64,000 bases of DNA from Alicyclobacillus sendaiensis NBRC 100866 (GTDB lineage Bacteria > Bacillota > Bacilli > Alicyclobacillales > Alicyclobacillaceae). The notes beneath the pieces are model-generated. The model had not been told where the DNA came from. It was given only the letters and a program-made list of their open reading frames with translations, and made no database searches. The first letter of the stretch is position 1; each line of letters begins with the position of its first letter. Made by a program: the position numbers and the translations under genes. Below are positions 1 through 2,748 of this stretch, in pieces. Location of the stretch: assembly GCF_001552675.1 (NCBI RefSeq), contig NZ_BCRQ01000005.1, positions 1 through 64,000 on the forward strand, written 5' to 3'.

Positions 1-432
1 GACACGGACTTTTAGTAGTCGTCATCGTGAGTTGAGGCCCGTGGATGTGGTATGATAGGAATAACCTGAGATTCAAGCCCAACTCACCCTGTTTTTCATT
101 CTGTAGATGACGGGGTAGGTGGATGAACCCGACGTGTGCGCTAGGCACAAGGATTCGGAGCCGACACGACGATTGGCGGGTACACAGGCAGGCACGTGGC
201 CGTCCCCACCATGACAGTCACAAGCGCTCGTTGCATGTCATACCTCCCCTACTTTCGCTTGTACTCCGAGCAAATGGATGACGTGCGGTTCAGAAGAGAT
301 CCACGTAGGAAGCCTCTGCAACCGCTATTCAATCTGTCACACAGTCGATGATGGGCAGCAACCGTTACGCAAACGTTACATAGGCATTCACGACGAGGAT
401 AGCTTGCGTGTGAGAAAGGCGGGGAACCTTAG
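1..432. other. Gene-free, AT-richer leader region
   Basis: No coding frame of any length is convincing here on either strand, and no RNA gene could be recognised. Base composition is visibly less GC-rich than in the bulk of the window, like the gene that follows. The only ordered element seen is an 11-bp-period direct repeat close to the downstream gene, listed separately. Confidence 0.5.
363..379 (+). promoter_or_regulatory. 11-bp-period direct repeat, possible SARP operator
   Basis: CGTTAC occurs at 363-368 and again at 374-379, so the unit repeats with an exact 11-bp period. SARP-type regulators are known to bind direct repeats of about one helical turn overlapping the -35 region. A weak -10 (GATAGC, 398-403) lies 18 bp after the second copy. 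The repeat is 53 bp upstream of a gene that encodes a SARP-like winged helix, so autoregulation is possible but inferred. Confidence 0.3.
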
Positions 433-1740
433 GTGAGCGGCCCTGCGATGAAAAACGTGCAGACTGACAAGCATCCGGTTTTCATATTGATTCCTGGCTT
501 AGGAATGGACTGTACAGCCTACCACCAGCTCGTTCCTTTCTTATCTCCATATGGGCATCTCGTCCTGTACGATTTCCCAGGCCACGGAGGCCGTACACAA
601 TCGAAATGGCATCGCGACGTGGATTGGGGCTCTCTCATCAACGACGTCATTTGTCATCTGCGCAACCTCCATCAACCTCCGTATCACGTCGTTGGCCACG
701 GGTTCGGCGGTACCATGGCCCTTCGGCTGGCCAAGTTGATGCCAGATTGGGTCTCCACATTGACCATTCTTTCACCTCACGCTTCTCATGGCACGCAAAT
801 GGGGACTGAATTCATTGAGGTTGTCAAGGAAATAGAGACAACTCACAGCCTCAGGCCCATGTGGGATACGCTCGCGCCCTTATTAGTGCGCAATCCTACT
901 GCGGCCTATCTTGAGCGCATTCAACAAATGACGGACTCAGTAAATCCAGATATTTACGTACGCATGCTCAAACTCTCGTACCAAACCTCAAGCATGAAGG
1001 ATTTTGTCGGTATTGAACCCCCAACGCTCATCATTCAGGGTGAACATGATCCCCTGACCGTCGTTGATCTTTCTGTCTTGGTGGTTAACGTTCCGAAGAC
1101 CAAGCTGTGGACATGCCCAGACGCCGCAAATCTTGTGCACGTGGAACAGCCAAAAGCGGTCGCGCGTGAGATTGTCAAATTTGCATTGGGTCAAGAGGTC
1201 GATCGTAAATTTTCAGAAAACCATTCCGCCGTGAACCGATATCTTGTTCATAGAAGCGATGAGACAAAGAACATCTACGTCCAGTGTATCAACGAGTTCC
1301 ATGTCACCGTCGATCACGACACCATTCGGCACGGTTGGGAAAAGCGCCAAGCGCAGGTACTCATGCTGTATCTAGCACTGCACAGGCGTGCTTCTCGAGA
1401 TGAACTTTGCGAAGTCCTTTGGCCCTACGAGGACCCAGCCAAGTCAAGGCTCAGATTGCGCGTTTCACTTCACTACCTGCGCACGCTTCTTGGGAAGCAC
1501 GAAGACATTCTTCACACCACAAAAGAGTACGTAGAATTGAGAGGGCGCGTCGTTTGTGACATCGCCGATTTCTTTGAAAAGCTGAAGATGCTTCGGGGAA
1601 TGGAACCTGAAAACCGCAGAATTGCAGCAAAGAAGCTGTTGCGACAACTACCCCTTCAAATGATGAAGAACATGTACCACCCATTCGCCACGAGAATTCA
1701 GCAATTATTAGAATTTGAAATTGAGCATCTCATCGACTAG
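433..1740 (+). CDS. Alpha/beta-hydrolase-fold protein (catalytic residues lost) fused to SARP-like DNA-binding domain
   Basis: The 435-residue product has an alpha/beta-hydrolase fold at residues 10-255 and a winged helix at about 281-360 (pattern WEKRQAQVLMLYLALHRRAS, then DELCEVLWP), as in SARP/OmpR-type regulators. A helical BTAD-like tail follows. The nucleophile elbow reads GHGFGG, so Gly90 stands where the Ser should be. The usual catalytic GH before LVHVEQP reads AN, so Asn233 replaces the His; only the acid Asp206 (GEHDP) remains. The fold is therefore probably a ligand-sensing or protein-interaction module attached to a transcription factor. The start is GTG at 433, with GGCGGGG 8 bases upstream; ATG at 448 is an alternative. 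The gene is AT-richer than its neighbours and stands alone, which suggests transfer. The target genes are unknown. Confidence 0.8.
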   Translation: MSGPAMKNVQTDKHPVFILIPGLGMDCTAYHQLVPFLSPYGHLVLYDFPGHGGRTQSKWHRDVDWGSLINDVICHLRNLHQPPYHVVGHGFGGTMALRLAKLMPDWVSTLTILSPHASHGTQMGTEFIEVVKEIETTHSLRPMWDTLAPLLVRNPTAAYLERIQQMTDSVNPDIYVRMLKLSYQTSSMKDFVGIEPPTLIIQGEHDPLTVVDLSVLVVNVPKTKLWTCPDAANLVHVEQPKAVAREIVKFALGQEVDRKFSENHSAVNRYLVHRSDETKNIYVQCINEFHVTVDHDTIRHGWEKRQAQVLMLYLALHRRASRDELCEVLWPYEDPAKSRLRLRVSLHYLRTLLGKHEDILHTTKEYVELRGRVVCDIADFFEKLKMLRGMEPENRRIAAKKLLRQLPLQMMKNMYHPFATRIQQLLEFEIEHLID

Positions 1741-1800: not shown

Positions 1801-2748
1801 CTACCCGCGCATCCACCGCCTGACTTCTCCGTCCATCGCCGAGGTCACCTCGCCGCGGCTCTCCATCAAATCGAGGTGGCCCTGCACCTCGGACAGCCCG
1901 AGCATGACGACGGGGCCCTCCAACTTCGGGAAGAGGAAGCGGGTGATCTCCGCCACGGTCGTCGCGCCCTGAGCCAGTGCTTCTTGGATCTGTGCGCAGC
2001 GCGCCTCGTGCTCGGCGAAGCGCCTGTCGATGAGCGCCCGATGATCGGAAAACGGATCTCCGTGCCCCGGGTAGACCATCGTGAGATCCAGCGCGCGCGT
2101 GCGCTCCATCGATGCGCGGTAGTCGAGGAGCGGCTTCGGGCGAGGGGCGGACGGATCGACCGGCGGCTCGACAAACGCGTTCGCCGAGATGGTGGGCAGC
2201 AGGTGATCGCCCGCGATGGCGTGGCCAGCGGGATCCACCAAGAGGATATCGGTCCGGCTGTGGCCGGGGACGTACATCACCCGCCAGTCGCGGCCGCCCG
2301 CGCGAACCACGTCGCCGTCGCGAACGTAGACGACGTCGCGCCAATCGTGCTTCTGCATCCAGATGCGCGACTCCCAGCGGACGTCCGATCCGGCCTCGCG
2401 GGCAAACGCCGCGTAAAACGCGTCGAAGCGCCTGTGTTCTTCTTCGCCGAGCTCGACGATTCGGCGCGCCGCCTCGGAGACGACGATTCGCGCACCGGAC
2501 GCCTGTTGCACGGCGGACACGCCGCCGATGTGGTCCAAGTGCATGTGCGTGACGACCACCTGCTCGATGTCCGCAAACCGCAACCCGTGCCGCGCGAGCC
2601 CGGCCTCGAGTTGCGTCAAAGACTTTGGAAACAGAAGCCCTGTGTCCACCAGCGTGAGCGGATCGCCCAAAATGAGGTACGCGTTCACGTGATCTTCGGG
2701 ATACGGCGTTTCGATCCGCACCCGCTCAATGCCCGTCTGCATAGCCAT
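1801..2748 (-). CDS. MBL-fold metallo-hydrolase
   Basis: This 315-residue protein has the metallo-beta-lactamase fold. The metal-binding signature THMHLDHIGG lies near residue 68, and later conserved histidines appear in VPGHSR, AGDHLL and YPGHGD. The roughly 70-residue C-terminal part (from AQGATTVAEI) resembles the winged-helix-like tail of MBL proteins of the glyoxalase-II/RNase Z-like type. The substrate cannot be told from sequence; thioester or lactone hydrolysis is typical for the family. It is a single-gene unit, converging on the hydrolase-SARP gene. ATG at 2742 is an equally possible start. Confidence 0.85.
   Translation of the reverse strand: MAMQTGIERVRIETPYPEDHVNAYLILGDPLTLVDTGLLFPKSLTQLEAGLARHGLRFADIEQVVVTHMHLDHIGGVSAVQQASGARIVVSEAARRIVELGEEEHRRFDAFYAAFAREAGSDVRWESRIWMQKHDWRDVVYVRDGDVVRAGGRDWRVMYVPGHSRTDILLVDPAGHAIAGDHLLPTISANAFVEPPVDPSAPRPKPLLDYRASMERTRALDLTMVYPGHGDPFSDHRALIDRRFAEHEARCAQIQEALAQGATTVAEITRFLFPKLEGPVVMLGLSEVQGHLDLMESRGEVTSAMDGEVRRWMRG

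Follow-up and report, generated by a model that had tools for sequence, protein, structure and literature searches.

One gene in the window (the whole stretch of 64,000 nucleotides of Alicyclobacillus sendaiensis DNA analysed here) encodes a member of a Bacilli regulator family in which an enzyme fold has apparently been turned into a sensor, and for which a short candidate DNA site as well as candidate targets can be named (Table 1). On the combined grounds of sequence, structural models and analogy, the protein is likely to be a one-component activator, in which a pseudohydrolase sensing module is joined to a SARP part that acts at a repeat on the adjacent unit. No hydrolase-SARP fusion in Bacilli was found in the open-access papers searched.

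Table 1 Features of the pseudohydrolase-SARP locus, in window positions
Feature	Position	Strand	Basis or remark
Divergent ORF of 31 codons, strong ribosome-binding site, on the downstream side of the operator	141..236	-	candidate target transcript
Candidate operator GTAACG-tttgc-GTAACG, 11-bp direct repeat	363-379	-	only exact match in 2.79-Mb genome
Pseudohydrolase-SARP gene	433..1740	+	GTG start, 435 aa
Alpha/beta-hydrolase domain (residues 12-254), including a lid of four helices (125-185)	466..1194	+	AF2 model and structural matches
Gly90 codon, nucleophile (Ser) position	700..702	+	alignment
Asp206 codon, catalytic-acid position	1048..1050	+	invariant, 27/27
Asn233 codon, catalytic His position	1129..1131	+	alignment
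Disordered linker, residues 259-276	1207..1260	+	pLDDT <50
OmpR/SARP-type winged helix, residues 279-375	1267..1557	+	predicted fold
Shortened BTAD-like helices, residues 376-435	1558..1737	+	model; aligned to AfsR up to AfsR residue 183

Domain architecture and predicted structure

The N-terminal part of the protein gives a Pfam match to Abhydrolase_6 (residues 18-245, E 1.4e-17), and the full-length AF2 model (pLDDT 82.6) comprises a hydrolase core, four lid helices, the linker at residues 259-276 and a C-terminal domain. In structure, the hydrolase domain comes closest to an Exiguobacterium esterase and to the Burkholderia enol-lactonase 2xua (Z 29.2, rmsd 2.2 over 239 residues), with rice D14 (Z 28.8) and RsbQ (1wom, Z 27.9) as further matches; the top matches are nearly tied. 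The earlier note on this DNA had claimed that the hydrolase fold is retained, and both the Pfam match and the model confirm it. According to the model, the N-terminal domain is a canonical alpha/beta-hydrolase fold with a lid, similar to PcaD, D14 and RsbQ.

The winged helix that the same note placed behind the hydrolase is weak by sequence alone, as the Pfam family Trans_reg_C is matched at residues 311-364 with an E-value of 0.011, under the curated cut-off. Modelled alone, residues 276-435 are predicted with confidence (pLDDT 94.2, pTM 0.88), and the PDB structures that they match best are those of AfsR (Z 14.1 and 13.9, in a transcription complex with RNA polymerase) and EmbR (Z 13.5 and 12.9). 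These alignments span 153-156 residues; winged helices of the GlnR/PhoB type come next, at Z ~11 over ~90 residues. With AfsR and EmbR as best fold matches, the C-terminal domain is thus regarded as SARP-like, in agreement with the proposed winged helix. For the BTAD-like tail, about three predicted helices (376-434) could be upheld but not a complete BTAD: no Pfam match to BTAD was obtained in the 435-aa protein, and most relatives are 50-90 aa longer. Judged by predicted fold and promoter architecture (see below), the protein belongs with the SARPs, its BTAD being incomplete.

Loss of the catalytic residues

The nucleophile elbow reads GHGFGG, with Gly90 replacing Ser, and Asn233 (DAANLVH) is found at the position of the catalytic His, while the acid Asp206 is retained; in these assignments the ORF sequence and the alignment bear out what had been read from the single protein. 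Full-length relatives with identical domain order were found by profile and contig searches in Alicyclobacillaceae, Bacillaceae, Paenibacillaceae and Sporolactobacillaceae, and 12 of 399 genomes sampled evenly across the class Bacilli contain one. A search of the genome contigs with a single sequence returned no relatives, whereas an alignment-based search did recover them. Across the 27 aligned Bacilli members, the nucleophile position holds Gly in 26 cases and Gln in one, and the His position is taken by N (12), F (10), S (3), M (1) or Y (1), i.e. neither Ser nor His occurs at its place in any of them. The acid Asp is present in all 27. A divergent extra member beyond this set, L006, has the His and lacks the Ser (elbow GPGMG). 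Thus, the loss of Ser and His is family-wide in Bacilli and not local. Going by its sequence, the protein is outside the catalytic hydrolase families (PcaD, RsbQ, D14), as the Ser-His-Asp triad is lacking.

In a tree of the hydrolase domains, the Bacilli members form one clade apart from the intact hydrolases included, with a support of 100/99 under thin outgroup sampling; the row of L100 was entered in the wrong frame and its placement was disregarded. Fusions with an intact triad are not found among the close relatives. Four fusions from Acidimicrobiia (L048, L051, L067 and L080) share the domain order and differ in having Ser and His intact, and all four fall outside the Bacilli clade. The best NCBIfam score of L048, the only one of the four tested, is for a LipJ-type hydrolase, so that the Acidimicrobiia proteins seem to have arisen by an independent fusion with a hydrolase of another type.

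Host context and selection

The closest copy of the protein, 71% identical, is encoded at the same place in A. mali, with the same metallo-beta-lactamase-fold gene adjoining. Comparison of the window with A. mali gave a dN/dS of ~0.25 for the whole protein (0.29 in the hydrolase part and 0.20 in the SARP part) and of 0.11 for the neighbour gene. The pseudohydrolase-SARP protein is thus under selection, though faster-evolving than its neighbour. Taken together, the A. mali copy, the dN/dS and the single Bacilli clade argue that the fusion of a dead hydrolase with a SARP is not due to chance. Over positions 1-1750 the GC content is ~50%, compared to 65-70% in the flank. Of 15 genomes of the genus Alicyclobacillus, only two have a full-length copy, namely the window genome and A. 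mali. Patchy presence and low GC content suggest that the gene was perhaps acquired horizontally. The adjoining metallo-beta-lactamase-fold hydrolase (1801-2748, minus strand) lies downstream of the pseudohydrolase-SARP gene and is convergent with it; its A. mali copy is 92% identical.

A candidate operator adjoining the gene

A repeated GTAATG was first seen in the gaps adjoining the gene in Bacillaceae. Among the first 103 loci, 30 contain a single copy of the pattern GTAAYG-N5-GTAAYG, and all 30 belong to the pseudohydrolase-SARP family. For a spacer of 5, 16 exact pairs were counted near the genes (41 kb scanned) versus one elsewhere (639 kb); each of the other spacers from 0 to 24 gave at most one near-gene pair. 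A motif-free test of 6-mer direct repeats in the flanks also peaked at a period of 11, the largest excess by a wide margin (30 versus 3.9 expected). After training on the other clades only, the highest-scoring site of the entire locus adjoined the gene in 31 of 34 loci; here, L041 and L015 fail and L099 is weak. The best motif scores of control SARP loci (median 8.6, maximum 16.8) are mostly lower than those of the pseudohydrolase-SARP family, but 15 of the 34 best sites of the controls fall within the broad central 3 kb, above the quarter expected.

A -10-like TAnnnT starts 10 bp past the second repeat in most loci. At SARP promoters, direct repeats are 11 bp apart and the 3' repeat is located 8 bp from the -10 (PMC10936776). 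Repeat period and -10 spacing of the family thus match SARP promoters, as would be expected of a site bound by a SARP. Accordingly placed sequences of the form GTAAYG-N5-GTAAYG are proposed here as a new candidate operator. In the window, the repeat sits ~50 bp upstream of the start codon of the pseudohydrolase-SARP gene, and the reversed control pattern has no match in the 2.79-Mb genome. Both hexamers are retained in A. mali, with an altered spacer, and in both the window and A. mali the -10 after the repeat is poor.

Whole genomes contain one to four exact copies of the motif, generally no more than of the control pattern. A genome-wide regulon was tested for and is not supported, the exact copies being equal to the reversed control. 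Since copies elsewhere do not outnumber the control, the regulon may consist of a single unit, i.e. the adjacent neighbour only. One extra extended site was found, before a transposase-like ORF.

Genes downstream of the repeat

With ORFs of at least 80 aa as shared neighbours there was almost no conserved context, and the link to a neighbour emerged only from small ORFs and intergenic sequence. A SinI-like ORF (PF08671) lies downstream of the site in 14 loci (L021, L022, L023, L024, L026, L027, L029, L031, L036, L039, L040, L042, L043 and L097), in both orientations relative to the pseudohydrolase-SARP gene. The site leads to sinI irrespective of the side of the gene on which it lies, an argument for regarding site and sinI as a pair. 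Between the two, a c-di-GMP-I or c-di-GMP-I-GGC riboswitch was detected in eight loci (L021, L023, L024, L026, L027, L029, L036 and L097/L140). The unit in L140 is riboswitch-sinI-sinR, and a second such unit is located on the other side of the gene (L140:1900-5400). A c-di-GMP riboswitch before sinI has been reported in B. methanolicus (PMC4342826); the open papers searched contained no description of the pseudohydrolase-SARP regulator next to it.

A GGDEF gene directly follows the site in A. ferrooxydans (two copies); in Alicyclobacillus SP_1 a small ORF lies between the site and GGDEF. Large secreted or SLH surface proteins are encoded behind the site in L098/L139 and in several Paenibacillus, and a cNMP-binding symporter in L033/L038. 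A conserved 24-codon ORF (MRMFFICVKNSKLDLVYMRMYFRR type) without a Pfam match comes right after the repeat in L100-L103, where the next gene is presumably miaB-like. In the relatives, most units are thus either genes of the antirepressor SinI, in many cases with a c-di-GMP riboswitch in front, or genes of diguanylate cyclases and surface proteins. This points to an output at the level of biofilm and cell surface, and the general output is probably a biofilm or cell-surface decision.

The secreted protein encoded downstream of the operator in L139 (L139:3701-7795, plus strand) has 1365 aa, with five Endotoxin_C2-type and several Ig-like repeats. In L033 (7539-10187) and L038 (7547 onwards) a cNMP-binding domain is fused to a sodium/sulfate-type symporter, adjoining the regulator. 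The small ORF after the repeat in Weizmannia acidilactici (L037:5620-5868, minus strand) measures 55 aa from its ribosome-binding site and is without a Pfam match.

Proposed mechanism and alternatives

In the mechanism that we favour, the C-terminal SARP domain would bind GTAAYG-N5-GTAAYG as a side-by-side pair, just upstream of a weak -10. The bound pair would recruit RNA polymerase, like AfsR, and thereby switch on the adjacent transcription unit, which in the window would be the divergent transcript running leftward from ~350. The N-terminal fold, devoid of nucleophile and base, would act as a sensing or allosteric module; sensing would most likely rely on a small molecule held beneath the lid, in the pocket of the former active site. 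The computation shows the predicted folds, the residue losses and their conservation, the position of the repeat and the genes next to it, whereas DNA binding, activation and a ligand are inferred. A sensor role with an ester, lactone or acyl compound as ligand, as suggested in the earlier note, would fit the closeness of the modelled fold to the enol-lactonase and the strigolactone receptor D14. As a tentative extension, which we hold to be possible rather than probable, the protein may be the bacterial counterpart of a plant hormone receptor: a dead lactonase-like fold would read a diffusible small molecule and directly drive the adjacent sinI or sinI-sinR, preceded by a c-di-GMP riboswitch, resulting in a chemical-AND-c-di-GMP gate in Bacilli. 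Should a ligand be found, it would reveal a new chemical signal feeding into the biofilm decision made by SinI/SinR and c-di-GMP.

A different role of the dead hydrolase, as a dimerisation or protein-docking module without small-molecule binding, would leave the SARP part to activate the neighbour as before. The structural neighbour RsbQ works with a protein partner, RsbP (PMC3183031), and the wide variation at the His position (N, F, S, M, Y) does not point to a single conserved ligand contact. Conversely, elbow glycines, acid Asp and lid helices are retained, as expected of a pocket in use, and we regard a pure docking function as rather unlikely. Less likely again is a repressor that sits on the repeat and blocks either its own promoter or the adjacent one. 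The site is upstream of the gene and on the opposite strand in about half of the loci, making autoregulation possible there. In Bacillaceae and several Paenibacillus, however, the site lies downstream of the gene, leaving the gene's own promoter out of its control, and both the position of the site and its spacing to the -10 fit SARP activators. That the hydrolase domain keeps or has regained catalysis through other residues appears very improbable: the invariant acid Asp and the well-preserved fold would suit such an activity, but nucleophile and base are missing in all 27 members, and Gly cannot serve as a nucleophile. A decaying enzyme-regulator fusion, i.e. a local loss in a degenerating gene as the deviating GC content, the patchy presence and the shorter tail might indicate, is scarcely credible in view of the same losses throughout the Bacilli family, the intact frame and the dN/dS against A. 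mali.

Comparison with known systems

The activator with a pseudohydrolase sensor shares features with several known systems. In the plant hormone receptors D14 and KAI2 a hydrolase fold has also been turned into a receptor, and D14 is among the closest predicted folds. These receptors keep Ser-His-Asp and signal via F-box partners. The gibberellin receptor GID1 has a hydrolase fold in which the catalytic His is lost and the Ser kept, and it is without a DNA-binding domain. GID1 represents a different hydrolase subfamily and is likened here by description.

The SARP activators AfsR and EmbR resemble the present family in the predicted fold of the C-terminal domain and in the direct repeats with a period of 11 bp just upstream of the -10 (PMC10936776). 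It departs from these activators in having the SARP domain at the C-terminus, a shortened BTAD and a pseudohydrolase as sensor, and in its occurrence in Bacilli. The RsbQ-RsbP pair of Bacillus subtilis likewise employs an RsbQ-type hydrolase fold in signalling; however, RsbQ is a separate protein acting via a PAS domain, whereas here the fold is fused to a DNA-binding domain. The catalytic function of RsbQ is reported as required, according to the title of a study cited in PMC3183031 (ref. 9), and the present family differs in the loss of both catalytic residues.

Leftward side of the window

The repeat is located on the minus strand and should therefore serve a leftward transcript; the contig end is reached 362 bp beyond it. 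The small ORF in this direction (Table 1), the only one found there, agrees in start, ribosome-binding site and the PPIVVS motif with a 30-codon counterpart at another contig end (L143/L144) in A. mali. Differences between the two sequences show no codon-position bias (9, 12 and 9), and since they are equally distributed no peptide is claimed and coding is unproven. SinI is absent from the window genome, and the biofilm link is thus carried over from the relatives. A search of the window genome for c-di-GMP-I was empty, but the control of the same search gave no signal either. Downstream of the small ORF, the window shares a strongly conserved stretch, CTCAGGTTATTCC.AT.ATACCACATCCA (~35-75, minus strand), with A. 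mali.
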